From a virus, in the IMG/VR virus record IMGVR_UViG_3300007619_000006, positions 1 to 26,504 of that record: DNA of 26,504 nucleotides. One strand, given 5' to 3'. Positions 3,001 to 25,072 of the stretch are shown in pieces. The position numbers and the translations under genes were made by a program. The number at the start of each line of letters is the position of its first letter. Position 1 is the stretch's first letter. The notes beneath the pieces are model-generated. The model searched no databases, was not told where the DNA came from, and saw nothing but the letters and a program-made list of their open reading frames with translations.

Positions 3001-3450
3001 GTCCTCGTCCTTCCATACCGCCCGGATATTGGCACCGTACACACTGTTTTTGCCATATGTAGCGCCTGCCACCGGCTGCGTCTGGCTGCCTCCGGTGATC
3101 CACCAGAGCCACACATCGAGATCCGCACCTCCTTCATAGGTACCTGGATTCACCCATAGCTCGGCCGACCCACCACCCGAAACGCCACCAGATGCCGGCG
3201 AAAAGTCGACCACATGTAATCCGACCTGATTACCGCCATCTTCATCAAGCGAAATTCGCAGGGTAGGGCCACCCGACGCCTCTGACGTGGATTCATCCGA
3301 GTCTATCAGCCCAGCTGGTAATTGATCGCCCGTGATCACCCACGAGTGGGACGTAATCGATCCCGCACCAGATAGCTCGGCCGCATTCGCCGTTATTTTC
3401 CATCGATGGACATTCGGATTACCGATATAATCGTCTGTGATCTCGCTCAT
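1..3450 (-). CDS. Giant tail fiber / receptor-binding protein with two LamG-like modules (C-terminus beyond window)
   Basis: An open frame of 1150 codons runs from ATG at 3450 to the left edge with no stop; I translated it in full. Residues about 25-350 and 405-735 are two diverged copies of one module. Each begins with a DUF2341-like part (PTLR, PASGG, YGKN.VY) and continues with a LamG/concanavalin A-like beta-sandwich (YTDATSN.NDL, SPFG.N, FWFK, DTWYH..GEL, FDGH/LDGH.KA, LS.DQK). The linkers are Ser-Gly rich (about 370-388, 747-754 and 912-923). Residues about 836-1045 match the 310-residue protein encoded just upstream. Residues about 1095-1150 (GMAHGMATD, KRIFAG, then RADVDSLVQIY) look like the start of YWTD/NHL propeller repeats. 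The ATG follows the upstream stop directly. Lectin modules at the end of a tail operon suggest binding of host surface glycans; that role is inferred. Confidence 0.85.
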   Translation of the reverse strand, partial: MSEITDDYIGNPNVHRWKITANAAELSGAGSITSHSWVITGDQLPAGLIDSDESTSEASGGPTLRISLDEDGGNQVGLHVVDFSPASGGVSGGGSAELWVNPGTYEGGADLDVWLWWITGGSQTQPVAGATYGKNSVYGANIRAVWKDEDYTDATSNGNDLSDTDIVNASDSPFGSNLVSYELNGSSSFLQAADDTALDIATTVTMEFWFKTDGAAGFQIIMAKRGPSTTYNYGVAVNTSGGTDVLDCGFFTTVFRSASASWSGDFGSLDTWYHVYGELNDTGSVVCKVFRNATEVATNSFATDMAPNTSVFGIGSLQGSSQFFDGHIKAITLYDVVLSSDQKTTLDNNQVDPTSFWDVSAAIEDGPFTGSGSGSIGSGSGSIGSGSGDIAGEQCAYHTIAAENIPGSGSVTGMPWPITGAEFPDYMLDSDDSRSEAAGAPTLRAYLDAAKTQRLPLHIKDFTPASGGLGGGATAEIWTNAGSYTGNQDLPVYWSWDPVGSGMQPAAGDPYGKNAVYPGSIHAAYIDDDYTDATSNANDLTNTNVVIDSDSPFGVNSMEFNGSSARLNVADNASLDITDAVSMAFWFKIDADTGAYQVFLGKRQGSQYNYGAAANADASGTFDVGFYNSGYKGVTTDWSDNFSYDTWYHAIGELEDTGTPTASKLYINGSLLNSASVNSSLIANIRDLIWGAQNTSGSSYAEWLDGHLKAMFVINAILSADQKDAFYLAQSDAATFWGEPASCFVPGSGSGSGSIPVDQECYDTIARDTTFNRLTIWQPRTFAVCGLSGGEAMAQVAPLSQSNYFAGSASERLSGAHVFDARVIKSDLIRHLKKMAAEGCPVHLAAFGFARHDIWLTDSRLQVIDERDAGGRMGGAALRVTQQRERAAIAQVTNLMEFAPWYNTAAAVDTAGSGSGSGSGSGSAATYVLKGRCDTNFTGPLWQVDTGDSVDSLGTFTGQSAVIEFTFPLGGMRLLASGAWAGTVQQIAWDESVISTRAKAYDTDDTITLLSSIWKLRVTATRADEMPRLTVAFAGLSDGARDGVCIDCADPDAVAATAPPWIVPSFEEFDLIVYQSLAQFFTIPIDGSAARTEFAGGAGLAGMAHGMATDTQNKRIFAGQNFISQYWAWSRADVDSLVQIYQGPGFDGQF
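2297..2343. repeat. 21-bp tandem repeat encoding a Ser-Gly linker
   Basis: A perfect 21-bp unit beginning GAGCCGATGG occurs twice in tandem (2297-2317 and 2318-2338), with the first bases of a third copy at 2339-2343. On the minus strand it encodes repeated GSGSGSI units joining the two lectin modules. Being in-frame and identical, it can expand or contract by slippage and so change linker length. Confidence 0.85.
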
Positions 3451-4383
3451 CTAGCTGCTCCATATTGGTATTCCCGCCTGCACGCCATCGGACCCCACGT
3501 AGATGCCAGGGCGCGGATCGATCAGCGGCCCCGGGCTTGTGATGCGCACGATGGGCTGCTCGTCAGAGGCGAGCACGGTAATGAGGATCGACCACGTGCC
3601 ATCGGGCACCTTGCCGGAGACGTCGTTGATATCTACCGTCTTCGCTATTGACGCCGGCAGCGCGTTCCCCGACCAGTCAAAATAGCTTACGCTACCTGTC
3701 CAGCCACCCGTGAGCAGCAGCGTAGCGCCCTGGATCGGCAGCACCATAGATAGGTTGGGCGATGGGTTGCTCCCCTTGTCGAGGACGCCTGAGAAGTCAA
3801 CGCTGGTTCCTGCCGCCATCGGGTCCCAGAAGGGACCCACCCACCCGCTCTGGTGCAACCGAAGCAGCGCCCACTGGTCAACCATACCGGAGCCCGATGC
3901 GACCGGAGCCGCGCCGGAACCCGATCCGCCGGCAGGGGCCTGGGGGAGCGCCGTCGACGACGTACACGCCCACGGGATGCCCTCGATGATGTTGTCAGAC
4001 TGGTAGATGGCGCCGTCGAAGACATGCGACTGCAGACGCGCCAGGGCGCCGGCCATATTCGCGGGACCGCGTCGGATGTCGATCATGTCGAGCGATTCGC
4101 CGACCGCCCAGACGTCATGCCTGTCGAAGCCGATAACGAGGCAGCGTACCGGCCAGCACTGGCCTTTCATCTGCCGCAGGTGCGAGATGTCGCACTCGCG
4201 CAGGAGCTGGAATTCCAGCGTCCGATCCCGGGAAATCACTTCCTCAGCGCCGTCGATCGTGACGTAGTTCTCGCTCGTGCTCACAATAGGGGAGGGCATC
4301 GCGAAGCGCGCGTGCGCGTCGACGACGTGCCCGGTCTGCTCCTGGTAAAATACAGCCCTATGTATCTGTCCACGTGCTGTCAT
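3451..4383 (-). CDS. Tail protein, paralog of the C-terminal half of the adjacent fiber
   Basis: 310 residues. The ATG at 4383 overlaps the hub gene stop (ATGA), and its TAG abuts the fiber ATG. Residues 77-118 (PVRCLVIGFDRHDVW...MIDIRRG) align with residues 840-880 of the fiber (PVHLAAFGFARHDIW...VIDERDA). Residues 181-250 (GWVGPFWD...GGWTGSVSYFDW) align with about 935-1000 (NFTGPLWQ...GAWAGTVQQIAW). A Ser-Gly-rich hinge at 152-166 separates the two blocks, as in the paralog. No enzymatic motif is seen. The position after the hub and before the fiber suggests a baseplate or fiber-attachment component. The function is inferred; the paralogy is visible directly. Confidence 0.8.
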   Translation of the reverse strand: MTARGQIHRAVFYQEQTGHVVDAHARFAMPSPIVSTSENYVTIDGAEEVISRDRTLEFQLLRECDISHLRQMKGQCWPVRCLVIGFDRHDVWAVGESLDMIDIRRGPANMAGALARLQSHVFDGAIYQSDNIIEGIPWACTSSTALPQAPAGGSGSGAAPVASGSGMVDQWALLRLHQSGWVGPFWDPMAAGTSVDFSGVLDKGSNPSPNLSMVLPIQGATLLLTGGWTGSVSYFDWSGNALPASIAKTVDINDVSGKVPDGTWSILITVLASDEQPIVRITSPGPLIDPRPGIYVGSDGVQAGIPIWSS

Positions 4384-9096: not shown

Positions 9097-9362
9097 TCGG
9101 TAGGATCGTACCTGTCCCCGTTCTCGCAGACCAGACGGAGGAACTGCTTCGCGTGCTCCTGCTTCGGCATTGTGATGTCATTAGACCGGATATCGCCGGA
9201 GAGAATCAGGTCCAGATCGACGCCAAGGAGCGCGCAAACCTCTTCCGTCTGCCCGATCGTGAACGTGTCGGGCATAACGGGAACCGGCTTCAGTTTCCAC
9301 CGGGTCCCGCTATCCTTCCGCCGTCTCGAGACGGCGGGTTTTCGTCTCCAGAGCTTCATCAT
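9021..9362 (-). CDS. Tail assembly chaperone, G-like
   Basis: 113 residues. The frame is open upstream to 9497 but that part lies inside the major tail protein gene. I choose the ATG at 9362, which overlaps the major tail protein stop (ATGA) and is followed by a second ATG. The N-terminus is basic (MMKLWRRKPAVSRRRK). The middle (FTIGQTEEVCALLGVDLDLILSGDI) and end (TEWTAQQYRGVMVALVANFIYRS) look helical, as in G-type chaperones. It ends at TAG 9021 unless the ribosome slips at 9045. It lacks any enzyme motif. Identity rests on position, size and the frameshift signal rather than on primary sequence. Confidence 0.82.
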   Translation of the reverse strand: MMKLWRRKPAVSRRRKDSGTRWKLKPVPVMPDTFTIGQTEEVCALLGVDLDLILSGDIRSNDITMPKQEHAKQFLRLVCENGDRYDPTEWTAQQYRGVMVALVANFIYRSVVN

Positions 9363-9841
9363 GCGCCTGAGCCGCTGCCCGGATCGTATTCCTGGATGGC
9401 CTGCCCGCTCTCGTTGGCCGGAGCAGAAACAGCGACCATCGCCATCTGGAGCGTGACGGGGTTTGGCACCGCCTGCGCCGTATAGACGACATGGCAACCG
9501 AATTGCCCGCCGACGATTTTGCGGGTGACCTTGCCCAGCTCCTTAACGCGGAACCAGACTGCCGTCAGGTTGGTGGTCGCCGTGATCAAGTTATTCTGGA
9601 ACGTGTCGTTCGCCTTGAGCGCCATCGGCAGAACGCCCTTCAGCAGAATCATCGCCATGAGATCCGTCGAGTTCATCCCCTGGACGGTCTCGGCCTGCTC
9701 GCCGAACGCCTCGTAGCCATCGGCCAGGATCTGCGTCCTCGGGATCGTAACCCAGGTCCCGGACGAAACATCGTCCGGATCGTAGTCGACAGAGTGCTCT
9801 ATCGACTCGACGACAGAGCGGTGAATTGTTGTATCGGGCAT
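9359..9841 (-). CDS. Putative major tail (tube) protein
   Basis: 160 residues. It is the gene immediately before the tail chaperones and tape measure, the standard place for the tube protein. The sequence is beta-rich and of tube-protein size, with GTWVTIPRTQILADGYEAFGEQ near the start (quoted around its core) and a long beta stretch over NNLITATTNLTAVWFRVKEL. The C-terminus ends EYDPGSGSGA, one of several Ser-Gly tails in virion proteins of this phage. The ATG at 9841 lies 6 bases after the upstream stop. I do not recognise a specific family, so the call rests mainly on gene order. Confidence 0.72.
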   Translation of the reverse strand: MPDTTIHRSVVESIEHSVDYDPDDVSSGTWVTIPRTQILADGYEAFGEQAETVQGMNSTDLMAMILLKGVLPMALKANDTFQNNLITATTNLTAVWFRVKELGKVTRKIVGGQFGCHVVYTAQAVPNPVTLQMAMVAVSAPANESGQAIQEYDPGSGSGA

Positions 9842-9847
9842 TGTGTA

Positions 9848-10432
9848 CTACCTCAGTGTTATTCTGAAATCAAGATGATGTACAAGGGCTTCCGGCTGCG
9901 AAGCGAACACAGCAACCGGAAATTCAGGGACGGCAATCGTTTCTGGCCGGTCGACCTCCACGATGTGGCCGGCCTCGCCTACGATCGATTCGTCGACCTC
10001 CTCGGCGCCTACCGTGGAAAGCTCTGTTAATAGCCCTGTCGGCGATTCGCCCCAAAGCAGCATGTTGAACTGCTCCTGCGTCGATCCGGCGTAGGCGTCC
10101 GATTCGGTAAATTCGAACTCCATCAGGACCGCGAACGTATGCGAAATCTGCACCTTGCCGCCCGTGATCGCATATTCGTCCTCGTTCCCGTACTGCGTCG
10201 CGTCCGCCTGGTCGATCGGCGCCATGCGACACCACGCGACCCGGGGCGGACTGAGCGAGCGGTCGCAGAAGACGTTTTGAAAATCATAGACCGATTCCAT
10301 ACCCAACATCGCTTTCGTAATGAACTTGACGACATTGAACGTAGCGTAGCCGTGCGCATCCAGGACGGCGGCGCACTTCTGGCGGAGCCACTCCAGCTTG
10401 GCCTCCATCGGTATGGTGAAAGGGCTATTCAT
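9848..10432 (-). CDS. Putative tail terminator / tail completion protein
   Basis: 194 residues. The ATG at 10432 overlaps the gp10-like gene stop (ATGA). It begins with a helical segment (MEAKLEWLRQKCAAVLDAHG) and continues with beta-rich stretches (KVQISHTFAVLMEFEFTES, FPVAVFASQPEALVHHLDFRITL, read across its end). A helix-plus-sheet protein of this size between a gp10-like protein and the major tail protein is normally the tail terminator (lambda gpU type), which caps the tube and joins it to the head. The function is inferred from synteny and overall shape. Confidence 0.62.
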   Translation of the reverse strand: MNSPFTIPMEAKLEWLRQKCAAVLDAHGYATFNVVKFITKAMLGMESVYDFQNVFCDRSLSPPRVAWCRMAPIDQADATQYGNEDEYAITGGKVQISHTFAVLMEFEFTESDAYAGSTQEQFNMLLWGESPTGLLTELSTVGAEEVDESIVGEAGHIVEVDRPETIAVPEFPVAVFASQPEALVHHLDFRITLR

Positions 10433-11004
10433 GCGGCCGGCAGGCTGCTGCCTAATTCGGATTCAATAAAGGCAATCATGATGCCGAGGGCGCGTTTCTG
10501 CACTTCTGGAAGCTCGTCATCGATGGCCGGCGCGAGGTATTCGCGCCGGGGCATCGTGATCTTAAAACTTGTCTTTTTCGTTAGCGCCATGAATTTCCAT
10601 TTCTCCTCGCCCGTCTCGAAAAACATCTTCCAGAAGAAGCCGCGGCTCTTTGTCGTTACCGGCACGTTGATGGTGCCGCCGAACTCATGGATGGCCGCGT
10701 AGGGGACGAGGATCGTGAAGATGAACGTGGTCATGGCGTCCCGTATGCGGATCTCCTTCTTCGATTCGGCGCCGCCCTTGACGGCCCGCATCAGGCGCTG
10801 GCTGCGGATTGTGAGCCGGCTCGGATGGGTAGGCGTTTGGACCGCCTGGCCGCTGTCGTTTTTGCCTGAATCGATCATGTAATCCTGCACGGCCCGGCCG
10901 CCAATACGGGCAACCGCCATGTTCGCGATGCGCGTCCGCACGTCCTTGCGCTTTCGCAGGATACGCTGCAGCGCTTCTTGGAGCCGCTTCAGGTCGTCTG
11001 CCAT
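10429..11004 (-). CDS. HK97 gp10-like tail completion / head-tail joining protein
   Basis: 191 residues. An upstream TTG at 11010 would add two residues, but I choose the ATG at 11004 because it overlaps the connector stop (TAATG). The family hallmarks are visible: a basic helical N-terminus (LKRLQEALQRILRKRKDVRTR), the central YAAIHEFGG motif, and PRREYLAPA followed by a C-terminal helix. HK97 gp10-family proteins and the related gpS/gpZ proteins act in joining tail to head. The position between the gp6-like connector and the tail terminator is the usual one. Confidence 0.85.
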   Translation of the reverse strand: MADDLKRLQEALQRILRKRKDVRTRIANMAVARIGGRAVQDYMIDSGKNDSGQAVQTPTHPSRLTIRSQRLMRAVKGGAESKKEIRIRDAMTTFIFTILVPYAAIHEFGGTINVPVTTKSRGFFWKMFFETGEEKWKFMALTKKTSFKITMPRREYLAPAIDDELPEVQKRALGIMIAFIESELGSSLPAA

Positions 11005-11771
11005 TACCAAGCCGGTACCACCCGGTGTTGATAGAGTGATTCGATTTGCTTTCGTTCGTAATCGTCCAGCGCCCGCTTACTCGTGATGCGCAGCCGGTCT
11101 GCGCTCATCTCGGATTCGCTGATCCCTACCAGCCCCTTTTGATTCCAGGCTATGTTCGCGATCACGATGTTTGCCGCGGCCGCCGCGATGTCCTGCGGGA
11201 GCGTCTGAACCGTGGCCGTATCGGAGAGGTTGGTCAGATCCCCGGTACTCAGAGCGCTGTTCCACGTCTCGCCGGATCCGGGCGCTTCCTGATCGTCCCG
11301 GATGTAGCCGCCGAAGTACACGGCATCGGCCGGCTGCTCCGACAGGTCCCCGTCCAGGTGCATGATCCCTGTGTCCATGCGCTCGCCTACGACCATGATC
11401 TCATCCGATAGAGCGGTAGATCCGTCGACGCTGTAAATTTCGGCAACCGGAAAGTGGCGGAAATACGCTCGCCACCGCGTCGTCTGGCTGGAGCGTGAAT
11501 ACTGCGACGCCTCCTGCCAGTCGCTGCCGTACTTGTCGCGCCGCCAGCGCTGCGTGTGCTGCCGGATGATCAGGCGCCGCCCCAGGTACTTCTCGATCTT
11601 CTCCGTCGCCATCTTGATAAATCGTAGCGACGCCTGCTGTATCTCCTCGGTATCGCCGCTTCCGGGGTCCGCCCGCAGCGCGCTCGTCACCTGCGTTCCG
11701 AGCTTCTCGAAAGCCTGATCCGCTACCTGAGATAGCGTCACAAGGTCGGTATATGAGGCCGTGAGAGCCAT
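11004..11771 (-). CDS. Head-tail connector protein (gp6-like)
   Basis: 255 residues. The ATG at 11771 overlaps the stop of the upstream enzyme gene (ATGA). Connector-type features are a helical N-terminus (FIKMATEKIEKYLGRRLIIRQ), a beta segment (FRHFPVAEIYSVDG), an Asp-rich section with FGGYIRDD, and a long C-terminal helix region (DIAAAAANIVIANIAWNQKG then RALDDYERKQIESLYQ). These match the DnaT-like/gp6 adaptor proteins that form a ring below the portal. Two short PGSG segments occur (ADPGSGDTE and APGSGETW). Family assignment is by pattern and synteny. Confidence 0.75.
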   Translation of the reverse strand: MALTASYTDLVTLSQVADQAFEKLGTQVTSALRADPGSGDTEEIQQASLRFIKMATEKIEKYLGRRLIIRQHTQRWRRDKYGSDWQEASQYSRSSQTTRWRAYFRHFPVAEIYSVDGSTALSDEIMVVGERMDTGIMHLDGDLSEQPADAVYFGGYIRDDQEAPGSGETWNSALSTGDLTNLSDTATVQTLPQDIAAAAANIVIANIAWNQKGLVGISESEMSADRLRITSKRALDDYERKQIESLYQHRVVPAW

Positions 11772-13378
11772 CAGGCATTAACCATATCATCTTCCTGCGG
11801 CAGGTTCTCCCGCTTCCAGTCCTCGACGAGCTTTTTGGCGGCCAGTTCGGCGGCCTTTTTACCCCGTTCGCGGCCCTTGACGTGGCCATCGAAGACGACG
11901 TCGTAATACCCATGTCCCGTGTGACTGCAGATCACCTCAGGTACATCGGCTTCGGTCAGCTCCTCAATGGGTTCGACTTCCGGCAAAGCCGGCTCCGTTC
12001 CAGGGAAGTGGACATCCGGCGCGTACTCGGCCTGCCCCTGCTGAACGAGTTCCTTCGCGTGCTGCTCGTCCGTAAAGAAGACGCGGCCTCTGAGCGCGTT
12101 AATGCCGCGCTCTACGCCAGAGCCACGGGGCGTATACCCGCGGTTGAAGTTGCGCAGGCGATTGACCGCCCGGAGCGCAACCTGATTCCTATCGAAATAT
12201 GATGTTCTCATAGTGGCCCACTTCTGGGCTGAGTATTTTTTATGTCCGTTCGGGTTCGGGATCGACCCATTCAGCAAGGGCTGGTACACACGCCCGGACC
12301 CGATGGGCACCGACACGCGCCCGGACAATCGCCGTATCGTCTCCGTGATAGCCTCACCCGCGCGCTCGGACGCGCGCCCGTCCGCGTAGGCATAGCAAAG
12401 GTCCACGGCCTGCCGACGCTTCTCCCTTTGCTCCGGACGGTCTTCCAGCGCCCGGCGTACGGCAGCCACCATATCCGCCGGATCGTCGACGTTGATACCG
12501 ACGCCGGAAGCCTCCCACCACCTGAGCCCGTGGTTCACGGCCTTGCGGTAGTGCGGGCAGTTCATCACGACGACGGGGCGGCCGTCGCCACCCTCGCCGG
12601 CAGATGCGAATTCGAAGAGCGTGGACATATGATCCATCACGTAGAGATCCGCCCGCTCCATCACGTCAGAGAACTTCTCTACCACCTCGATCCCGCGCTT
12701 GCGGTATTCCTCCCGTATGCTGCCGAGCATCCTCGGGTGACCGTGGCCCAGTAGCCGTATCTCTTTGCCGTTTAGCTTCGAGAGCGCATCTAAGCCCGGC
12801 AACTGGTGCCAGAAAGCCGACCTGGTTTCCTGAATCACCTTGCAATCCCAGTGCGTCGAAAAAGCAACGACGGGAAGTTTCCCAGCCGCCCGCTTCCTGA
12901 TTTCGCCCCGGTGCCAGGGGTCCATCTTCGGACACCCGACGATCCGGACGCTGTCTTCGCCATAGATCGCCGCGTCCTTGCCTGCCGGGTTCGGTCCCGG
13001 ATGCAGGAATAATGCGACGTTCTTGTGGTTCGGCCAGCCGGCGTAAGATGGGCTCTTCTTCGTGAAGGATTGCCCGGCGCCGTGCTGCGTGAACACCGCC
13101 ATACGCTGCGCCTTGTGGGCAATCAGGAGGTCACCCGACGCGCTGCAAAGAACAAGATTCCTACCCTTTCGGAGCAGCCTGGGTACGTGCCCCCGGCTTG
13201 CGTACGTGACGATGTTCGGTGGATCGATAACACCCGCAACAAGCCCCTGAACATGAGGCCCTAGCGTCGTCCTCGTGATGATGCTGCCCCGATGCTCCGC
13301 CGGAACGGCCAGAAACATGGGGAGCAGATGGTCGAAGAAGTGGCGCTCGTGGGCGAGGAGATCGATTCTGCCGCTCAT
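11771..13378 (-). CDS. CDP-glycerol glycerophosphotransferase-like GT-B enzyme with phage-head-like C-terminal extension
   Basis: 535 residues. Residues 1-350 resemble the TagB/TagF family, which transfers glycerol phosphate or ribitol phosphate to sugars: TQHGAGQSF at 97-105, IVGCPKMDPW at 146-155, VVAFSTHWD at 170-178, GHGHPRM at 211-217 (the HP motif), ADLYVMDHMSTLFEFASA at 243-260 (TagF-like DYSS region) and PVVVMNCP at 268-275. The last ~105 residues are unlike that family: RVFFTDEQHAKELVQQGQAEYA at 432-453 and, at about 485-522, SHTGHGYYDVVFDG followed by a basic helix resemble small phage head proteins that usually follow the capsid gene. This looks like an enzyme fused to a virion-associated module. 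It sits between capsid and connector genes. The product transferred and the acceptor cannot be told. Confidence 0.7.
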   Translation of the reverse strand: MSGRIDLLAHERHFFDHLLPMFLAVPAEHRGSIITRTTLGPHVQGLVAGVIDPPNIVTYASRGHVPRLLRKGRNLVLCSASGDLLIAHKAQRMAVFTQHGAGQSFTKKSPSYAGWPNHKNVALFLHPGPNPAGKDAAIYGEDSVRIVGCPKMDPWHRGEIRKRAAGKLPVVAFSTHWDCKVIQETRSAFWHQLPGLDALSKLNGKEIRLLGHGHPRMLGSIREEYRKRGIEVVEKFSDVMERADLYVMDHMSTLFEFASAGEGGDGRPVVVMNCPHYRKAVNHGLRWWEASGVGINVDDPADMVAAVRRALEDRPEQREKRRQAVDLCYAYADGRASERAGEAITETIRRLSGRVSVPIGSGRVYQPLLNGSIPNPNGHKKYSAQKWATMRTSYFDRNQVALRAVNRLRNFNRGYTPRGSGVERGINALRGRVFFTDEQHAKELVQQGQAEYAPDVHFPGTEPALPEVEPIEELTEADVPEVICSHTGHGYYDVVFDGHVKGRERGKKAAELAAKKLVEDWKRENLPQEDDMVNA

Positions 13379-13442: not shown

Positions 13443-14855
13443 TTACGAACCAGAAGCCGCCGTAAACGGCCCATTGACGAACGCCAGCGTCCGGTATACC
13501 GTCAGCGCGAGGCGTTCTTCAAAGCGCATTGTAGCGAGGTTGCGCCTGAAGTTGTCGCTGTCTTCGGTCGAAATCGCGACGGCCGCGCTCATGCGGTCCC
13601 AGATCTGGGCGCCGAGAGCGAACGAGCCGACCGTGAACTCGCCGATAGGCTGGCTTAGCGATACGGCAACAGGCAACCCCCAAATACGAGGCTGTGCGAT
13701 CTGCTGCGGCATGGCGAAGATGTAGCGGTTTTCACCGTCCTTCGTCAGTTCTACGCTGGCCCAGTCGAGCGGGTGGAGAACCACACCGGTTGGCGGAAAC
13801 TCGCTCTCGATCACCTGATACATCGCCACGCGGAGGCGGTCGATATTGGTCGCGCTCACCACACCGATCGTGGTCTCAAGACTCGAATCGTAGGCCGTAG
13901 CCTGCGTGTTGATGCCGTCGAGATTGTTCGAAGTGCCGTCGCCATTCAGGAGTTGGTCTTCTTCCTCGAGCAGCAGCAGGTACCGCCCGCGGCTGTCGAT
14001 GTAGGACTGAAGCCCTACCGCGTCGTCGAGAAGCTGAAGCGCGATCACGACAAAGTGCGCGATCGTTTCCACGTTGGCGGTCGCCGCCGTGAAATCGAAA
14101 TTGGTCTCACCTTTCAGCTCGCCCTGCCCGTTTCCGCCAGATCCGGTCTGGGGTCCCGCACTGTCGGTCAATCCGGTTTCACGCACAAAGCGAACCGTGT
14201 CGCTCTGCGTGGTGCCGACCGGGATCAGGTCCCGAATCAGAAGCGCCCGCTCGCCAGGGCCAACGATGCCCGGAACGCGCATGTAGTCGACCGTATCGCC
14301 GGCCGATATATCGGCGTTCGTGATCGTCTTTTCCAGCATGGAGGCCGCCGCCGTAAGCAGGTTAGCCGGTGTGATCATCGGAACGACTTCGCGGTGCTGC
14401 TTCGAGAGGCCCCATGATGGAAATTCCATCACGTAGTTAGAGCCCTGCGAGCGCCGAACGCGGGAAAGCGCCTTGGCGTGGTCGCCGTCGCGGTCCTTGA
14501 TCATGTCGTAGACACGGAGGCCGGGCGTCTTGAAAGCCGCGCCCTGCTGCCCATTCTGTGCCATGCGCTTTTGTAGGCTGACCTTCAGGTCTTCGGATTC
14601 TTTGGCCTGCTTGGTCAAGTCCTCCTGAATCGCTTTGATCTCGGCAGCGCGTGTGACCAGCTCTTCCTGGGTCTTCTTGACCTTGTCGACCAGACTCGCG
14701 TTTTCCTTCGAAAGATTGGCTACGATTTCCTTGTCTTCGGACGAACCTTTCTGGTCGTCTTCGAGCTGCTTGATCCGAGGCTCGTACTCGGTGATAATAT
14801 CATTGAGGTTCTTCGACAGTTTGTCGAGAACGTCTTTTGTTTGTGTTTCTGGCAT
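13443..14855 (-). CDS. HK97-fold major capsid protein
   Basis: 470 residues. The first ~100 residues are a charged coiled coil (DKLSKNLNDIITEYEPRIKQ onward to SLQKRMAQ), as expected of the delta/scaffolding domain removed by the prohead protease. The remainder has the phage capsid family pattern: LTAAASMLEKTITNADIS, VETIAHFVVIALQLLDD, RGRYLLLLEEEDQLLNGDG, GVVLHPLDWASVELTKDG, PQQIAQPRIWGLPVAVSLSQ, and near the end IWDRMSAAVAISTEDSDNFRRN (shown in parts). The ATG at 14855 lies inside the end of the protease gene. The cleavage site is probably shortly after residue 100, which is inferred. The C-terminus ends AASGS, and a Ser-Gly-rich loop TGSGGNGQG occurs mid-protein. Confidence 0.95.
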   Translation of the reverse strand: MPETQTKDVLDKLSKNLNDIITEYEPRIKQLEDDQKGSSEDKEIVANLSKENASLVDKVKKTQEELVTRAAEIKAIQEDLTKQAKESEDLKVSLQKRMAQNGQQGAAFKTPGLRVYDMIKDRDGDHAKALSRVRRSQGSNYVMEFPSWGLSKQHREVVPMITPANLLTAAASMLEKTITNADISAGDTVDYMRVPGIVGPGERALLIRDLIPVGTTQSDTVRFVRETGLTDSAGPQTGSGGNGQGELKGETNFDFTAATANVETIAHFVVIALQLLDDAVGLQSYIDSRGRYLLLLEEEDQLLNGDGTSNNLDGINTQATAYDSSLETTIGVVSATNIDRLRVAMYQVIESEFPPTGVVLHPLDWASVELTKDGENRYIFAMPQQIAQPRIWGLPVAVSLSQPIGEFTVGSFALGAQIWDRMSAAVAISTEDSDNFRRNLATMRFEERLALTVYRTLAFVNGPFTAASGS

Positions 14856-16022: not shown

Positions 16023-16174
16023 GGCAGTACCTGGTTTACTTCTAGAAATTCAACGACCCGCAGCGATAGCCAAAACATGAGCAGGTACAGCAAAAGCACC
16101 ACCGCGCCGATGCCGGCCCAGCTAACGAGCATCACGATCCAGCTCCATATGCGCCTGTATACCGGCCTGATCAT
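16019..16174 (-). CDS. Small membrane protein
   Basis: 51 residues from the ATG at 16174, which overlaps the MuF gene stop (ATGA); an upstream TTG at 16201 lies within the MuF gene and is less likely. After a basic N-terminus (MIRPVYRRIW) comes a long hydrophobic stretch of about 30 residues (WIVMLVSWAGIGAVVLLLYL and on), enough for one long or two short membrane helices, then a short acidic tail. Size and topology would allow a holin-like or other membrane role, but no lysis gene is nearby and the call stays open. Confidence 0.6.
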   Translation of the reverse strand: MIRPVYRRIWSWIVMLVSWAGIGAVVLLLYLLMFWLSLRVVEFLEVNQVLP

Positions 16175-16968
16175 AGCACCGCCATACTGGTACATCGACA
16201 ATTTATGACGTTCCCAGCGCTCCCTGCCGTGTCGCCGGGGTACATGAGCGACTCGCCACCTACGTAGAACGGCTCGTCAACCTTCACCTCCTGCCCGTCG
16301 GCCTCGATATGATCGTCCCGCACGAGGCCGTCACGGCGCGATAACCACTTCTTATTGTCGATCCCGGCATCGGTGAAAGCCAGTTGCTGACCGGATTCAA
16401 ATACCGGCGTTGCCGACGTCTGAGCAATCGTGCGAGCTCGCCATGGCGCAGCCCCGAACACGCGCTGCACCCGGGCGGCCAACTCGTCGACCGTCTCGCC
16501 GCGTTCGACGCCGTCGCCGATCTGCTTCGCCAGCATCTTCAACGTAGTGTCGTTCATGCCCTTCGTTTTCTGCAAGACCTCCAACGCAGTCGCACGCGCG
16601 CGCGTATCGCCGGGCGGGAAGGAGGTAGAGAACGCAACCCGCTCCGCGCCGGTGCGGTAGCCCTGAACTATCGATCGGGTGACGAGCGGCCCGTAGCGCT
16701 CCAGTGTGGCATCGTACCAGCGCTGGAGATCAAATATCTTCATCGCCGTCTCGAAGTCGTCCTTACTGGTTCGCGAGATCGGAGAGCCCTTGTATAGGTC
16801 CCGGAGGCGCTTGATCGTGTCGGTTTCCTGCTCCCGAAACAGCCTCATGCCCGCGCGCACGTACGCCCGCTCACCGGTGCGCTTGATCAGGTCGACGCCG
16901 TGCCACATGGCGCGGAGTTCTTCCTCGCTCGTGCCCTTGATCCGGATTAGCTGGTTAACAACGCCCAT
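16171..16968 (-). CDS. Phage head morphogenesis protein (MuF-like)
   Basis: 265 residues from ATG at 16968, preceded by AGAGGTGG; the frame is open to 17034 but the earlier part lies within the upstream glycosyltransferase gene. The C-terminal half has the MuF signature: RARTIAQTSATPVFESGQQLA, then KKWLSRRDGLVRDDHIEADGQ and the closing FYVGGESLMYPGD...NCRCTSMAVL. The N-terminal half is helical (FREQETDTIKRLRDLYKG). MuF-type proteins are minor head components, normally encoded right after the portal gene. Here four enzyme genes separate portal and MuF, so the enzyme cassette appears to be inserted into a conserved gene pair. Confidence 0.9.
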   Translation of the reverse strand: MGVVNQLIRIKGTSEEELRAMWHGVDLIKRTGERAYVRAGMRLFREQETDTIKRLRDLYKGSPISRTSKDDFETAMKIFDLQRWYDATLERYGPLVTRSIVQGYRTGAERVAFSTSFPPGDTRARATALEVLQKTKGMNDTTLKMLAKQIGDGVERGETVDELAARVQRVFGAAPWRARTIAQTSATPVFESGQQLAFTDAGIDNKKWLSRRDGLVRDDHIEADGQEVKVDEPFYVGGESLMYPGDTAGSAGNVINCRCTSMAVL

Positions 16969-17785
16969 AACGCCACCTCTTGACCCTCGTAATGCCCCAC
17001 ATCTGCCGGTAGAGCCTTTCGTACTGGCTATCACGCGCCCGGAAGGGCTGGTAGTGCGGAGGACGCTTCTTGTAGTGCTCGACCCACATCGACGGGATGA
17101 AGGCGACGCCTAGCCTTCCGGCATCCTGCGACGTTTCGGCCGGGCGTAGCTTCTGATTCGATAGCTGCCGCTTACGCATTGCAGTATCCCCATTGCTCGC
17201 CTGGATTCGCTGAAAAAAATCCGCGTGCTCACCGCCAATCTTTAGCCTCTCATCCCACAGCACGTGGTCGAATAGGCGTCTTTTGGCTACCCAAAAATTC
17301 GATATCGTATCGGCTTCGAACCACACCAGGCCGTCCGGCTCGGTGTGCTTGCGGGTTACCTGGCGGGCAAACAGGGTGCCGCCTTCGAGCGTAACGTCCG
17401 CGTAGTACTTCGTCCAACCGGCGCCTTTCTTTCGCACATGCCGGCACTTGCACCCGGCCATGACGAGGTGATCGTGAGCCTCCAAAAGTTCGATCATTCG
17501 CGGTATATCCGTCTCCTTCGTAAATACATAATCATCGTCGACATGGACGAGGTAGGGCTCTGTAGTCCCGTTAATCAGCGCGTTGCGGCCGGCGCTGCAT
17601 CCAACATCGAAAGGTAGTCGAATGTACCCGGTCAGGCCGCGCAAGGGGAGGGGCTCCTTCGAGTCGTCGGCGGCGTAGATACGGGCGTCCGGCCAGAGCC
17701 TGCGGATCGATTTGATGCAGCGCTGGGCCATCTGGGGGCGTTCAAAGACCTTGATCGCGAAAGCGGTGTTTTCTAGCCAGTTCAT
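16955..17785 (-). CDS. GT-A glycosyltransferase, B4GALNT-like (paralog of the gene at 18401-19183)
   Basis: 276 residues. The ATG at 17785 overlaps the sulfotransferase stop (ATGA). GT-A features: nucleotide-sugar binding start (FAIKVFERPQMAQRCIKSIR), ADDSKEP at 39-45, the DxD metal site VHVDDDYVF at 80-88, and GGEHADFFQRI at 184-194, which corresponds to the GEHxDFF acceptor/base motif of animal-type beta-1,4-N-acetylgalactosaminyltransferases and related enzymes. The paralog has the same motifs in the same order. No signal peptide or membrane segment is seen, so it should act in the cytoplasm. Donor and acceptor cannot be read from the sequence. Confidence 0.82.
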   Translation of the reverse strand: MNWLENTAFAIKVFERPQMAQRCIKSIRRLWPDARIYAADDSKEPLPLRGLTGYIRLPFDVGCSAGRNALINGTTEPYLVHVDDDYVFTKETDIPRMIELLEAHDHLVMAGCKCRHVRKKGAGWTKYYADVTLEGGTLFARQVTRKHTEPDGLVWFEADTISNFWVAKRRLFDHVLWDERLKIGGEHADFFQRIQASNGDTAMRKRQLSNQKLRPAETSQDAGRLGVAFIPSMWVEHYKKRPPHYQPFRARDSQYERLYRQMWGITRVKRWRYGRC

Positions 17786-18408
17786 GCCGCCTGCTTCCTC
17801 CGGTGCCGCCCTGCGTTCTTGTGAATACCCGTCTTAATGATTTGCGCCTCACGCGAAATCCCGACATGATCGAGAATACCTCGGTTGCCTGCCTCGCTAT
17901 TCAGGGCGTCGATGTAAAAGACCTTCACTTGATCCGGGTACGCTCTTGTAGCAGCCGGCACCAGCTCCTCGTAATAGTGCTCCCAGTACCGGACGAGTGC
18001 CTCTTTCCGGTTCTTGCATCCCCTAAATTTGGGGAATGCATGGTACCAGTTGGCGCGCTTCGGTGTGCCGCCTTCCGCCGCCGGCTGCCAGTTGTTGCGG
18101 CGTCCGGCTTTGTGCTTCCACGATTCCAGCCAGCTATCAAGGTCCCGCTTCATGACGATCACCCGCGCCCCCTTGTCGCAGAGCATCAGCAGGCACGAGC
18201 CCCACTGTAGGGCCACGTCCCCGTAGTACAGGTGGTCGGCTTTTTCGGCTTCTACCCGAGCAATCCAGCGCTCCGGCTTGCCCCACTGGAAGCGCCACGT
18301 GAACCGCTCGTGCGTTACGCGCCCGCCCGCCTGCGCGTCGAGCAGGTGCGCGAGCGATGTCGTTGCCGTGCGGCCAGCGCCACAGCCTATGATAAGCTTG
18401 CTACTCAT
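17782..18408 (-). CDS. PAPS-dependent sulfotransferase-like protein
   Basis: 208 residues from ATG at 18408; the frame extends upstream to 18495 inside another gene. The N-terminus carries the 5'-phosphosulfate loop GCGAGRTATTSLAHLL (8-23), and ARVIVMKRDLDSWLESW (81-97) supplies the Arg and Ser of the 3'-phosphate-binding motif. Both are where sulfotransferases have them. Between them lies FTWRFQWGKPERWIARVEAE. Length is slightly short for the family but the core is intact. The gene overlaps glycosyltransferase genes on both sides by 4 and 8 bases, pointing to sulfation of a glycan made by them. A kinase role for the P-loop is less likely, as no second kinase motif is seen. Confidence 0.8.
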   Translation of the reverse strand: MSSKLIIGCGAGRTATTSLAHLLDAQAGGRVTHERFTWRFQWGKPERWIARVEAEKADHLYYGDVALQWGSCLLMLCDKGARVIVMKRDLDSWLESWKHKAGRRNNWQPAAEGGTPKRANWYHAFPKFRGCKNRKEALVRYWEHYYEELVPAATRAYPDQVKVFYIDALNSEAGNRGILDHVGISREAQIIKTGIHKNAGRHRRKQAA

Positions 18409-19183
18409 AAGCGGCCCTCTTTCCAGGCTTCGCCCATTTCTTGATCTTCTTGATACCCCACCTTTCGAGCATCTGGCGCCGGTACTTACTGCCACGGCGT
18501 CTCATCTTCTTGTATCCTTCGGGGCGGCTACCGGTGTCGATGAAGTGGATGCCGGGGATAAAAATAACGAACGTCGTCTTTGGGTATTCCGGGTTTTTTC
18601 GCTGAAGTTGAAGAAAGAAATCCAGGTGTTCCCCACAGGTCTTATAGGATTCATCGAATCTCATATCCCCTAATCTTTTCGTATTGACAAGAAAGCACAT
18701 CGGAAGAAATTCCACATAAAACAGCTTCTTTTTAGATACCGGGTTGTACGTTGAACAGGTCGGCTTTTTGATTGACAACACATTGCCCATCAGCTTAAGA
18801 TCGCCTTCTGTGTTAGCCCACCGATTACGCCCCTTCTCGTACTTCGCCATACCTGCAACCGCCGCCATGGGTTCAGCCTGTAACGCCTCGTACAGTTTCT
18901 CCACACTCCCCGCCGTCAGCTTGTTATCATCGTCCATCAGCATCAGGTACGGCGTCTCTGCCTCATCGATGAGGCGGTTTCGTTTGGCCGATATGCCGCT
19001 ATCGTAGGGCATATCGATCGTGCGGATATGCTCACCGACATACGGCACGGGCTCCCGCGAATCGTCGGCAACCAGGATACGCGCATCTGGATACAGGCAT
19101 AGGATCGTCTCTACCGTATCTCGACACTCGGCCGGGCGTTCGAACGTCGAGATACAAAAGGTTATGTCGTTAAGCATTCCCAT
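18401..19183 (-). CDS. GT-A glycosyltransferase, B4GALNT-like (second paralog)
   Basis: 260 residues. Two ATGs are possible, 19183 and 19177; I keep 19183. It parallels the gene at 16955-17785 throughout: FCISTFERPAECRDTVETI, ARILVADDSREPVP at 35-48, DSGISAKRNRLIDEAETPYL in the middle, DxD in MLMDDDNKLT at 81-90 and CGEHLDFFLQLQ at 183-194. The C-terminus is strongly basic (KKMRRRGSKYRRQ, IKKIKKWAKPGKR). The base composition appears somewhat lower in G+C than nearby head genes. The duplication plus divergence suggests two different linkages, possibly alternating in one glycan, which is speculation. Confidence 0.82.
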   Translation of the reverse strand: MGMLNDITFCISTFERPAECRDTVETILCLYPDARILVADDSREPVPYVGEHIRTIDMPYDSGISAKRNRLIDEAETPYLMLMDDDNKLTAGSVEKLYEALQAEPMAAVAGMAKYEKGRNRWANTEGDLKLMGNVLSIKKPTCSTYNPVSKKKLFYVEFLPMCFLVNTKRLGDMRFDESYKTCGEHLDFFLQLQRKNPEYPKTTFVIFIPGIHFIDTGSRPEGYKKMRRRGSKYRRQMLERWGIKKIKKWAKPGKRAAYE

Positions 19184-19941
19184 TTCAAATGAGGATACAT
19201 TAAAGGGATAAAATCACGATATATCGGCTCCCATTCGCCGCTCTTCTCCCGCCGGTTCTTAGCGGCATCCCACGTATTCTTCGATCCTCCGTCCTTGATA
19301 TCAACGATATGAACGCGCTGCAGATCGACGCCGTGCCGGCTGATCACGTGCCGCGAAGCGTGCGCCGCCTCTAGCTTACGATGGACGTGCGCATCCATAC
19401 GTGTACTCTTTTTGTCAAGGTACGGGCGCCATCCTATACGGTCGAGAATATGGCGGCTCATCAGGCGTCCGGGGCCGTAGCCCCACTCGCCACCGGCTGT
19501 GCAGAGCGCGGTCTCTCCGGTTGCCTTATTGACGAAAAAGCAGGAATCCATCCCCACGTGATCTACTCCGAATTCGCTACGCGGCATATGAACCCATCTC
19601 AACACCTCTTCGATATAGCCGCCCGATATCAAGTTATCGCTCCCGGTCTGCATGAAGGCGGCTACCGGGCAACGCTCCGGCGTCATAGCGCGCCGCATCG
19701 CCAGCCAGCCGGCGTTCCACTTGCGGCCCAGCGGCAGATTCTGTGTGACGAGCACATCCCATCCCATCGTAGATAGGTCTTCGACGGGGTAGGGGTCCGG
19801 GTCGTCCGGGCTCACAATGGCGAACGGCATGATCTCGATATGCCCCCTGAAATAGGATCGCAGGTGCTCCCAGTGATCGACCGCGAGCGAGACGGTTTCA
19901 AGTCGGCCCCAGATCGGGATATGTACGCCGAGGTGGATCAA
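19162..19941 (-). CDS. GT-A-like glycosyltransferase
   Basis: 259 residues from a TTG at 19941 that overlaps the portal stop (TTGA). It starts HLGVHIPIWGRLETVSLAVD, as in GT2-like enzymes. LPLGRKWNAGWLAMRRA (69-85) looks like the nucleotide-sugar region, FMQTGSDNLISGGYIEEVL has SDN (101-103) where DxD is expected, and a later GPGRLMSRHILDRIGW plus TRMDAHVHRKLE could form the acceptor side. It is not a clear paralog of the other two. The altered DxD makes activity less certain. Role is inferred from family shape and from lying in the same overlapping gene run. Confidence 0.65.
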   Translation of the reverse strand: MIHLGVHIPIWGRLETVSLAVDHWEHLRSYFRGHIEIMPFAIVSPDDPDPYPVEDLSTMGWDVLVTQNLPLGRKWNAGWLAMRRAMTPERCPVAAFMQTGSDNLISGGYIEEVLRWVHMPRSEFGVDHVGMDSCFFVNKATGETALCTAGGEWGYGPGRLMSRHILDRIGWRPYLDKKSTRMDAHVHRKLEAAHASRHVISRHGVDLQRVHIVDIKDGGSKNTWDAAKNRREKSGEWEPIYRDFIPLMYPHLKWECLTT

Positions 19942-21347
19942 TGATGCCCGTTTGTTGATTTCTGAAGTATACCTTCCACCTCCATCAAGAGCGTCGATGC
20001 CGCCGCCTCGTCTTCTTCGCTCATCGACGATTCCATACCGCCGATATCGCTCAAGAGGATCGTACCGATCTTGCTCAAGAGTTCAGCCGCGTTGCCCATT
20101 TTCGGGTCATATCCAAGCTCCTCACGCGCCTCGTCCTGCGTAAAGATCGCCTGCCCGGCAACGAGCTTACTCAGGCGCGCCACCTTCTCATTCGCGTCCT
20201 CGCGAAGCGCCTTGATCATTGATTCATCATAGGTCAGCTTAGCTTCTGGAGTGCCGTACCGAGGCATGTACCAGGTGTTCATCTGGTCGATCAGCCAGTC
20301 CAGGAGCGGCAGGCTCGTTAGCTTGATGAGCGCCCGTACGGCCTCGATGTAGTTTGAGTACGTCTTATTCGCGTTGTCGCCCAGGAGCGCCGGGTCGACG
20401 CCCAGGCCAGCAGCGATCATCCGCATCGTCTGCACGATCGTCTCGTCCAGCAGCCCCTCGCGAGCGCTCATGCCGGCCTCTTTGAAGTCCATACCGCCCT
20501 CAAGGAGCCCCGGCTGCGACAGCGATGCGTCCCGGCTGTACGCTTCTTGGACCTCCTCTTTAGTGCGCTTGAACTGGTCGGGGTCCATCACGTCGGGGAC
20601 AACGAACCAGCCGGGGATACGCCCCTTGTGCTGACTGATCGACTTCGCCCATTCCATCTGATCGTCGAAAATATCGAGCGCCTGGAGAATCCGCAGAAGG
20701 AGCGGTAGGCCGCGGTCATCGTTGAGCGGATCGTACTTCTTGATGAAGAGCACTTCGTCGATAGGCCAAGCCATGCCACGACCATACATATCGACGCCTA
20801 GAAGGCGCACGATCTCCAGCGTCTGCTGGTTGCGCTCCACGTAGGTCATCCGGTCGGGGCGGATAAGCGAAATCCGAGTCGGGTTAAACGAGCGCTGTCC
20901 CATCAGCCCGAGGTTCCACATGAGCACTTCGCCGCCCAGAAACAGGTGGATCGTCATGATCTCGAAGAGCGCCCCCATCGAGCATTCGTTGCGCGGGTTG
21001 CCGAGAAGATTGATCAAGGGGTGATTGTCGTCAGCAACGAACTGACCGTCCGGGCCCGGCACCTCGACGTACAGGTTTTTGGCTACCGAGGCTATCGACG
21101 TGCTGACCAGCTCCACCGCCCGCCAGGCATACGGGTTGCGCACGGCCTTGCGGGCCATCGATTCGTAGGTCGGCTTTGACCAGTCGGCCGATAGCCCGAT
21201 AAAATACGTGGTCAGGGTACGCGAGACACCCCAGAAAAAGTACTTCAACACCATGGGGATGCGCCCGATCTTGCGGGTTACGCCGTTCAGGCCGGCCTTT
21301 GCAGCGCGTGCCGTGCGGCTGAACGGGCTTAATTTTTCTTTCTTCAT
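19938..21347 (-). CDS. HK97-type portal protein
   Basis: 469 residues. I choose ATG at 21347 over the upstream in-frame start at 21374 because AAGGAG lies 7 bases before it and it overlaps the methyltransferase stop (ATGA). Portal hallmarks: PYAWRAVELVSTSIASVAKN, HPLINLLGNPRN, MTIHLFLGGEVLMWNLGL, RPDRMTYVE, DPLNDDRGLPLLLRILQAL, GLLEGGMDFKEAGMS and MIAAGLGVDPALLGD, then YSNYIEAVRALIKLTSLPLL. The protein forms the dodecameric ring through which DNA enters and leaves the head. It is followed by four enzyme genes and only then by MuF. Confidence 0.96.
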   Translation of the reverse strand: MKKEKLSPFSRTARAAKAGLNGVTRKIGRIPMVLKYFFWGVSRTLTTYFIGLSADWSKPTYESMARKAVRNPYAWRAVELVSTSIASVAKNLYVEVPGPDGQFVADDNHPLINLLGNPRNECSMGALFEIMTIHLFLGGEVLMWNLGLMGQRSFNPTRISLIRPDRMTYVERNQQTLEIVRLLGVDMYGRGMAWPIDEVLFIKKYDPLNDDRGLPLLLRILQALDIFDDQMEWAKSISQHKGRIPGWFVVPDVMDPDQFKRTKEEVQEAYSRDASLSQPGLLEGGMDFKEAGMSAREGLLDETIVQTMRMIAAGLGVDPALLGDNANKTYSNYIEAVRALIKLTSLPLLDWLIDQMNTWYMPRYGTPEAKLTYDESMIKALREDANEKVARLSKLVAGQAIFTQDEAREELGYDPKMGNAAELLSKIGTILLSDIGGMESSMSEEDEAAASTLLMEVEGILQKSTNGHH

Positions 21348-21916
21348 TTCTTTACTCCTTTGAACAAATGCCACTTCCAGATGCGGCGCATTTCTTTGAT
21401 ATCAATACGATCCCCATAGCGATCCGCCACCGCGCCCCAATGCGGAAACGTACGGACGTGCGCCGGGTCGTCGAACTCGGGTACGCTGACGATGCAAGTG
21501 CAGCCGGCCGGGATCAGGTCTAGTACGTCCATGTCGTATTCGATGTGCTCTAGTACTTCCATGAGAACGAAAGCCGCATCCGGAGAAATGAGCGGAAATT
21601 CCATCTGGAGCAGATCTTGCGCCTCGAACTTGAAGTGACCCGGTAGCCCAATATTTTGCGCCTTACGGATCGCCACCGGCGAGAAGTCAAAACCCCAATA
21701 CGATAGCAATTCAATTCCGCGTCCGGGCAAGAACTCATGCAGATACTCCGCAAAATGCCCGGGGCCGCAGCCTAGATCAATAACCAGCGGCGTGCCCGAT
21801 TCAATCATGCCGGTAGCCGCTTTGTACAGGCGCTGCCGGACGCTTCGGTAGTCCCGCCACGAATGGACCGAGCTGCTCTCGTACGTCTCATCGTAATAGG
21901 ATGCCGGCCGCTCCAT
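21344..21916 (-). CDS. Class I SAM-dependent methyltransferase
   Basis: 190 residues from ATG at 21916, which shares a base with the preceding stop (TGATG). Motif I is LVIDLGCGPGHFAEYL at 44-59, an acidic residue follows in YWGFDFSPVAIRKAQ (73-87), and the post-II region is VLMEVLEHIEYDMD at 117-130. This is the Methyltransf_11/25-type small-molecule, sugar or protein methyltransferase pattern; no DNA methylase (D/N)PPY motif is seen, so DNA is an unlikely substrate. Position next to the glycosyltransferases suggests a sugar or glycan as substrate, by context only. Confidence 0.83.
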   Translation of the reverse strand: MERPASYYDETYESSSVHSWRDYRSVRQRLYKAATGMIESGTPLVIDLGCGPGHFAEYLHEFLPGRGIELLSYWGFDFSPVAIRKAQNIGLPGHFKFEAQDLLQMEFPLISPDAAFVLMEVLEHIEYDMDVLDLIPAGCTCIVSVPEFDDPAHVRTFPHWGAVADRYGDRIDIKEMRRIWKWHLFKGVKK

Positions 21917-22107
21917 CACTTCAGCACCTCGGGGCCTACGCTCATGTTTTGGCGTTCACGATACGCTGCCTGCCGGCACGCATTCTGGCAATAGTACACA
22001 TTCGAGCGAGGCGAGCGCCGGTAGAACGAAAAGCCGCAGTGCGAGCATTTAAACTCCCAACTCCGGCGCTTCTCGTTCCACGTTGGTTGGTTTTGCTTTA
22101 ATGCCAT
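21916..22107 (-). CDS. Small zinc-finger protein
   Basis: 63 residues from ATG at 22107, two bases after the terminase stop; the frame is open to 22164 but that part overlaps the terminase. It has CSHCGFSF, then YYCQNACRQAAYRERQ, giving C-x2-C and C-x3-C pairs. The second half is the common pattern YCS.ACRQ.AYR of small phage and bacterial zinc-binding proteins. It is rich in Arg and Lys, so nucleic-acid binding is possible. It is coupled to both neighbours. Function unknown. Confidence 0.75.
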   Translation of the reverse strand: MALKQNQPTWNEKRRSWEFKCSHCGFSFYRRSPRSNVYYCQNACRQAAYRERQNMSVGPEVLK

Positions 22108-23913: not shown

Positions 23914-24540
23914 TCATGCTGCCGGCGCTTGTTCCCGTTTCGGGTATGGTTTCGCAAGCGGTTCTATCTGCTTGCGCATTTCTTTGTCGAGCGGGTATAG
24001 GTAACGATGTTTAGGCTTTAATTTTTTGCTCGGTAGATCCCTATAATTCACTACAGAACCCCGTTCTCCGCTGCCCCAACCCGATGTCATAGTCCTATTG
24101 TGAACCCATTCTCCTTTATAAAACCATGCTGTACCAGGTTCAGTATCTCCTGAATAGATCCAATTTCCTGCCTGGTATATCCCACCATGATGCCCCTGTT
24201 CTGGATCTGCAAAACTAACGACAAGCCGCAATCCTTCACTCTGGATTTTCAGCATCTTTAAAGATATAGATATGATTCTGGTAACAGATGCATCATGGTT
24301 TCTTAATGCAACCCTAACAAGTTCACATACTTCGAACTGAGATAATTTATACGATGCCCCTAATGTCGGAGTGTTGCCATGACTGAATAGTATCGCTCCT
24401 ATAAAATCACCATTCTCCCAAACGCCAAACCTTGATGTCTTTCCTGCTGGCATACGCTTTGAATAATGCCAGTTCATCACAGCAAACCGCGCCGCTTCGT
24501 AGCTACACCAGTCTATTTTCAATTCAGGGCGTGAACTCAT
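23914..24540 (-). CDS. mom: Mom-family DNA modification protein (adenine carbamoylmethylation)
   Basis: 208 residues. The pattern is that of phage Mu Mom and relatives, GNAT-like proteins that turn adenine in DNA into N6-carbamoylmethyladenine and so block restriction: WHYSKRMPAGKTSRFGVWE (24-42), FIGAILFSHG (46-55), ELVRVALRNHDAS (73-85), LVVSFADPEQGHHGGIYQAG (106-125) and the close LPSKKLKPKHRYLYPLD (169-185). The ATG at 24540 overlaps the ParB-like gene by 17 bases, so the two are probably co-translated. By hand count G+C is about 42% over 24001-24480 against about 59% over 24601-24840 in the neighbour, a sign of separate origin. Function is from family resemblance. Confidence 0.85.
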   Translation of the reverse strand: MSSRPELKIDWCSYEAARFAVMNWHYSKRMPAGKTSRFGVWENGDFIGAILFSHGNTPTLGASYKLSQFEVCELVRVALRNHDASVTRIISISLKMLKIQSEGLRLVVSFADPEQGHHGGIYQAGNWIYSGDTEPGTAWFYKGEWVHNRTMTSGWGSGERGSVVNYRDLPSKKLKPKHRYLYPLDKEMRKQIEPLAKPYPKREQAPAA

Positions 24541-25072
24541 GACCGCACTCCGGGCAGGTTACTTTTGCTTTCTCATCGAGCCGCCCTTGTTCGTCAATGC
24601 CTACTGGCTGGAAGTTGGGTGCATCCAATCCTAACTCGTACAGCAGCGCGTCCACATCATCCCCGTCGTACCCCGTCCCGAGTAGCCCTTCGCTACTCGC
24701 CGCCAGCGTCTGCAGCAACTCCGCCAGGATCTCGTTATCGTACGTCGCCAAGTCGCTGTGCCGGTTGTCACCGATCAAGACCTTGATGGCGTGGATGTCG
24801 CCGTCCGTCTCGATGTATTCGACCGGGATCTTGAGCATACCGAGCGCCAGCGCCGCCTTTACGCGATGGTTGCCGGCCAATACGCGGGAATCCCGTTTGT
24901 CGACGATCACACGACCGTAAAAGCCGTTCTCCTTGAATGAGGTAGCAATCGCCCCAACATCGCCCTGACGCGGGTTCGTCTCATGCAAACGAAGTTCAGA
25001 CGGGTCCGCCATGCCGGTCTCCAGGTTAAGGAGCCGGATCGGATCGCCGTCTTTTGTTTCGATGAATGCCAT
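24524..25072 (-). CDS. ParB-like (ParB/sulfiredoxin fold) domain protein with zinc-knuckle tail
   Basis: 182 residues. The ParB-like domain covers about residues 15-110: ELRLHETNPRQGDVGAIATS, then ENGFYGRVIVDKRDSRVLAGNHR (66-70 VLAGNHR, the GHxR-like motif) and LGMLKIPVEYIETD. It continues with the usual KVLIGDNRHSDLATYDNEIL region and a C-terminal CPECGHEF zinc knuckle. In phages this domain often precedes DNA methylases; here it precedes mom. It is not a partition ParB, since no HTH domain follows and no ParA is seen. A role in DNA binding, nucleotide hydrolysis or as Mom partner is inferred. It is the first leftward gene after the palindrome region. Confidence 0.82.
   Translation of the reverse strand: MAFIETKDGDPIRLLNLETGMADPSELRLHETNPRQGDVGAIATSFKENGFYGRVIVDKRDSRVLAGNHRVKAALALGMLKIPVEYIETDGDIHAIKVLIGDNRHSDLATYDNEILAELLQTLAASSEGLLGTGYDGDDVDALLYELGLDAPNFQPVGIDEQGRLDEKAKVTCPECGHEFTP

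Follow-up and report, generated by a model that had tools for sequence, protein, structure and literature searches.

Genes of the cassette

The window analysed here is the 26,504-base virus record IMGVR_UViG_3300007619_000006, a genome fragment whose main gene block, on the minus strand, carries genes for glycosyltransferases (GTs), a sulfotransferase (ST) of the 3′-phosphoadenosine-5′-phosphosulfate (PAPS) type and a methyltransferase (MT) among the genes for the phage head. All of these cassette genes lie in that block, which reads ParB-like, Mom, small and large terminase, zinc-type small gene, MT, portal, GT-A/ST cassette, MuF, protease, major capsid protein (MCP), GTB, connector and tail genes. 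The original prediction had placed three GT-A enzymes, the ST and the MT together between portal and MuF, at 16955-21916. Three GTs and the ST do fill the portal-MuF gap (four genes, 16955-19941; 2,987 bases), whereas the MT lies upstream of the portal gene and the longer interval includes the portal gene itself. A fourth glycosyltransferase, GTB (11771-13378), had been overlooked, and the ST start had been set too far upstream. The enzymes are encoded as follows:

16955..17785, minus strand: GT_C, GT-A/GT2 glycosyltransferase, 276 aa; Pfam Glycos_transf_2 1e-10; DDD (DXD) at 83-85, GEHADFF motif
17782..18408, minus strand: ST, PAPS-type sulfotransferase, 208 aa; Pfam Sulfotransfer_4 5e-7 (with the longest open reading frame (ORF), 17782-18495), above the curated cut-off
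18401..19183, minus strand: GT_B2, GT-A/GT2 glycosyltransferase, 260 aa; Pfam Glycos_transf_2 8e-13; DDD at 84-86, GEH motif
19162..19941, minus strand: GT_A, GT-A-fold glycosyltransferase, 259 aa; AlphaFold and Foldseek; invariant GSDN (DXD-like) motif in the alignment
11771..13378, minus strand: GTB, GT-B (CDP-glycerol phosphotransferase-like) glycosyltransferase, 535 aa; Glyphos_transf 9e-9; between MCP and head-tail connector
21344..21919, minus strand: MT, class I S-adenosylmethionine methyltransferase, 191 aa; Methyltransf_25 3e-8; upstream of portal

The four gap genes, GTB and the MT take up about 5.2 kb, compared with relatives of ~36 kb. Cassette genes are joined to head genes by overlaps of 4-22 nt, and the four-base overlaps ATGA (17782-17785) and TTGA (19938-19941) reported earlier are present in the sequence. 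A promoter and terminator scan remained near chance level.

Identity of the enzymes

Pfam profiles, AlphaFold models searched with Foldseek and sequence motifs confirmed the predicted set of three GT-A enzymes and a PAPS-type ST. By profile, the nearest solved structure to both GT_C and GT_B2 was the GalNAc transferase B4GALNT1 (1.8e-16 and 1.2e-15, respectively), and GT_B2 also matched chondroitin synthase (7e-9); no sugar is inferred from these matches. The DDD motifs of both enzymes were invariant in five phages. GT_A had no significant Pfam match and no PHROG match, and the PHROGs contained no family for it or for the ST. The profile search of PDB sequences returned nothing for the ST or GTB and weak, chance-like matches for GT_A; folds were therefore used for the ST and GT_A. 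The GT_A model (predicted local distance difference test, pLDDT, 77) matched GT-A enzymes with E 1.6e-6 and probability 1.00, in agreement with the predicted fold.

The ST model (pLDDT 87.7) had the PAPS sulfotransferase fold, and its best 27 PDB matches in Foldseek were all sulfotransferases, tyrosylprotein sulfotransferases among them. The protein carries the 5′-phosphosulfate-binding loop GxGxGRxxT and the 3′-phosphate residues R88/S96. Its PAPS-binding residues (G8, G10, G12, R13, T16, R88 and S96) were invariant over nine aligned homologues. The start was moved to ATG 18408, giving a product of 208 rather than 237 aa, because an AAAGAGG-type ribosome-binding site precedes it and homologue starts agree with it.

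GTB scored 35.2 bits against Glyphos_transf (curated cut-off 22.1) and by profile falls in the family of CDP-glycerol glycerophosphotransferases (TagB/TagF). It differs from TagB/TagF in following the MCP gene and in a phage-specific C-terminal extension, which weakly matches a small post-MCP family (phrog_2616, 0.0019); polyol-phosphate transfer is not implied. No relatives of GTB were found in bacterial genomes with the patterns used. The ST, the GTs and GTB contain no membrane-like segment (highest 19-residue hydropathy mean 1.07) and are soluble. They are also neutral to basic, and the window phage therefore does not look halophilic; sulfation as a halophile trait was considered and rejected on the same ground.

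Conservation of the cassette in related phages

The head genes around the cassette were assigned as follows:

19938..21374, minus strand: portal protein, flanking the cassette; Phage_portal 4.5e-39 (Pfam, above cut-off)
16171..16968, minus strand: MuF head morphogenesis protein; Phage_Mu_F 4e-13, above cut-off; likely start ATG 16968, longest ORF from 17034
13443..14855, minus strand: major capsid protein, HK97 type; Phage_capsid 5e-43
11004..11771, minus strand: putative head-tail connector after GTB; homology and synteny with the connector position in relatives, no Pfam match, assignment by position

Scans with the ST or GT_A alone as the query gave no relatives, which emerged only with alignments or the capsid protein as queries. 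With these, the order MT-portal-GT_A-GT2-ST-GT2-MuF-protease-MCP-GTB-connector was found in four ~36 kb IMG/VR relatives (L008, L009, L075 with L171, and L076), and a fragment (L010) agrees with it. With gene content and order shared by all four relatives, the arrangement is beyond chance, and the link between cassette and virion genes claimed at the outset is strengthened. Identities to the window were 32-63% for cassette proteins (GT_C 51-63%; GTB 46-56%, at the same position) and 43-68% for portal, MCP and MuF. The MT was present in 4/4 relatives (36-50% identity; in L075 found by tblastn).

The ST and MCP trees had the same topology, (window, L008), (L009, L075), L076. Since they group alike, the cassette is regarded as long established in the head module and inherited together with it, and its earlier description as inserted was misleading. 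Recent insertion was likewise rejected, the cassette genes having diverged to a depth close to that of portal and MCP. The premise that portal and MuF are normally adjacent is only partly borne out by the relatives seen. When genomes were scanned with the MCP, 79 loci were obtained, all distant and many from alphaproteobacteria; they were too remote to name a host, and 0/79 had a cassette homologue. A further record (L004) has a large terminase 62% identical to that of the window but a different portal and capsid (Gp13-like); its genes for head morphogenesis and scaffold enclose a GT_A relative (26%).

The same genomes bear on the idea that hypermodified phage DNA is the substrate of the GTs, as it is in T4. 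This is a frequent role of phage GTs, and the window carries a Mom-family DNA modification gene (23914-24540, minus strand; Pfam Mom, 9e-47) adjoining the ParB-like gene (24524-25072). Against it, the GT genes are located among head genes, one type carrying a fused head-module domain (see below), and the ~36 kb relatives lack a thymidylate-synthase-family hydroxymethylase: PF00303 was absent in five related records in which positive controls were detected, the window itself being a fragment. We also know of no sulfation of DNA bases. A role in DNA modification would thus be very surprising. Mom was not found in six related records in a search that had no positive control and is not counted as proof of absence; the L076 genome has a DNA-cytosine-methylase-like ORF instead (L169:1182-1994, by eye).

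A second arrangement beside the major capsid protein gene

A ST relative was found in 184 records of cultured phages of the salt-loving bacterium Salinibacter ruber (M8), and a GT2 relative likewise in 184. In those Salinibacter records that were read, ST and GT2 directly follow the MCP gene and precede the connector; their GenBank entries annotate these ORFs as hypothetical. The order MCP-ST-GT2-connector also occurs in L067, L184 (L182 being the same lineage), L187 and L208, so that outside Salinibacter phages the arrangement is present in at least four other lineages (L067/L068, L182/L184, L187 and L208). L068 has no connector after GT2, and L186 has MCP-GT2-connector without the ST.

The GT2 of this second arrangement holds an extra domain, and a paralogue of that domain is encoded next door as a small stand-alone protein (pairwise E 4e-9 and 4e-7). 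Profile E values for the domain ranged from 3e-19 to 3e-4 in the GT and from 4e-13 to 9e-7 in the stand-alone copies; no stand-alone copy was recognised in L208. Small ORFs of the same type lie directly after the MCP gene in sphingomonad prophages, and hhalign related the Salinibacter domain set to two sets of these ORFs with 89-96% probability. The domain is near phrog_2616, a family of unknown function.

For ST and GT2, the ratio of nonsynonymous to synonymous substitution rates (dN/dS) was 0.14-0.24 in Salinibacter phages and in L067 versus L068, except for one ST pair at 0.32 that had two changes only. More diverged pairs gave 0.21-0.40, near saturation. Judged from these ratios, both genes are under purifying selection.

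Passenger (moron) genes caught by chance in a head operon could in principle account for such a cassette, since GT and ST genes move between phages and ST relatives occupy other positions. Against this stand the co-inheritance with MCP, the full set and order kept in 4/4 relatives and the purifying selection in the second group, which together make a cassette of no virion role distinctly improbable. It is also unlikely, though slightly less so, that the ST is of the tyrosylprotein type and sulfates a capsid or tail protein directly while the GTs act separately. The tyrosylprotein enzymes among the best structural matches are consistent with this, and the fold does not separate protein from glycan substrates; yet GT2 directly follows the ST in both head-module arrangements, and L186 keeps the GT without the ST, a pattern that fits an ST acting later than the GT.

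Related enzymes in other phages

GTB relatives lie beside head or connector genes in three unrelated phages: before head-tail adaptor genes in L081, after the capsid-protease gene and a SU10-type adaptor in Rctr41k, and in L077 as part of an MT-GT2-GTB fusion after a head gene, whose C-terminal domain is paralogous to the next small gene. The L077 fusion (L077:5749-8493) is a 914-aa protein with FkbM methyltransferase, GT2/galactosyltransferase-like and GT-B domains, directly after the head gene.

Two further groups of loci were recorded. A possible second glycan cassette lies in L080 (5343-11086) between the major head protein and tape measure genes; it holds a GTB relative together with two other ORFs, one glycosyltransferase-like and one resembling PIG-L/LmbE deacetylases (9309-9992, by eye). 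STs also occur beside GT2 genes in the viral contigs L190 (3315-5413; two STs in a row), L179 and L200, where no head genes were recognised nearby.

A proposed head glycosylation and sulfation system

We consider it somewhat better than an even chance that the cassette is a phage-encoded system for glycosylation and sulfation of the virion head, made late with the head. The window phage and its relatives, the cultured Salinibacter phages included, probably cover their own particles with sulfated sugar. The three GT-A enzymes and the GT-B enzyme would draw on host nucleotide sugars to assemble a short glycan, attached to the MCP or to a neighbouring head protein; the MCP is our favoured candidate for the acceptor, or a near neighbour of it. 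The ST would then add sulfate from PAPS, producing a negatively charged coat, and the MT would perhaps cap the glycan. No adenosine 5′-phosphosulfate kinase was found in the related records, and PAPS must therefore come from the host. In the sister arrangement, the GT's copy of the small head-module domain, whose stand-alone gene lies directly downstream, may tether the enzyme to the assembling capsid. The sulfated glycan anticipated at the outset gains from the synteny, the active-site conservation and the GT fusions.

The virion is preferred as the substrate because, beside the MCP gene, a GT and a head-module domain form one protein; a virion coat is tentatively favoured over the host surface conversion that the original prediction had left as an alternative. 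Under that alternative, the enzymes would alter a glycan of the host envelope at a late stage of infection, which might, for instance, keep progeny from attaching to debris or shut out competing phages. Phage GTs and acetyl-type changes of host O-antigen are well known, and surface glycans matter to phages. Known Gtr seroconversion systems need the membrane proteins GtrA/GtrB, and unlike them none of the enzymes here has a membrane segment; the genes also belong to the late head block, where they occur in two distinct arrangements, and GT2 is fused to the head-module domain. Host surface conversion is accordingly rated as rather unlikely.

Three observations weigh against head glycosylation and sulfation. 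Operon position is evidence of timing, not of substrate. ST relatives exist outside head modules, in L069 (beside replication genes) and in L072. The window GTB extension gave only 8-22% with the post-MCP domain in hhalign; its relation to that domain family is suggestive, and sure membership is not claimed.

A broader proposal is advanced more tentatively, at somewhat less than even odds: a widespread, unrecognised class of tailed phages may coat the capsid with a sulfated glycan made by an ST and GTs of the head operon, one GT being brought to the capsid by its fused head-module domain.

Comparison with known phage systems

Mycobacteriophages Che8 (gp110), Corndog (gp38) and Myrna use their own GTs to glycosylate phage capsid and tail proteins (Freeman et al. 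2023, as reported in PMC12363180 and PMC12691614). The likeness to the present phages lies in phage-encoded glycosyltransferases, the acceptor here being a predicted one. Those papers mention no sulfotransferase; the window's head gene block contains four GTs, a ST and a MT, and the sister lineages have a GT joined to a head-module domain. Virion glycosylation is thus already known, and a sulfated coat would add a type of surface new to phages.

Sulfotransferase genes in the marine OM43 phages and Synechococcus phage S-SRM01 are reported as metabolic genes standing alone (Sulfotransfer_3), with a function that 'remains unclear' (PMC10580990). These are PAPS sulfotransferases too, but the present ST belongs to Sulfotransfer_4 and is paired with a GT in a head operon. 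The Phoenicisalinivirus phages of Salinibacter ruber have myovirus-like particles characterised by virion proteomics, with no transferase in the main text (PMC11631230). They show the order MCP-ST-GT2 and the fusion of GT2 to the small head-module domain, but have the ST and one GT only, not the full window set. Our literature search, with most subscription journals outside its scope, found no report of sulfated phage virions or of a head-module domain joined to a GT.

If the proposal is true, phage sulfotransferases acquire a specific, testable role, in cultured phages, where print has called the role unclear (PMC10580990). A charged particle surface carrying sulfate would matter for phage stability and adsorption, for diffusion through mucus or brine and for how antibodies or cells recognise particles, and the fused domain would be a natural, sequence-encoded way of aiming a glycosyltransferase at a capsid. 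Since Salinibacter virion proteomics have already been made (PMC11631230), the decisive test can start from existing material.

Other features

A Salinibacter phage record (L003:8369-9871) carries a TnpB/Cas12f-like IS605 OrfB gene between MuF and MCP. In the window, positions 1-3450 (minus strand) encode a long tail protein in which two stretches of Laminin_G_3 type (ConA-like lectin) occur along with numerous GSGSGS linkers, and the neighbouring 310-aa protein (3451-4383) is apparently related to part of it.

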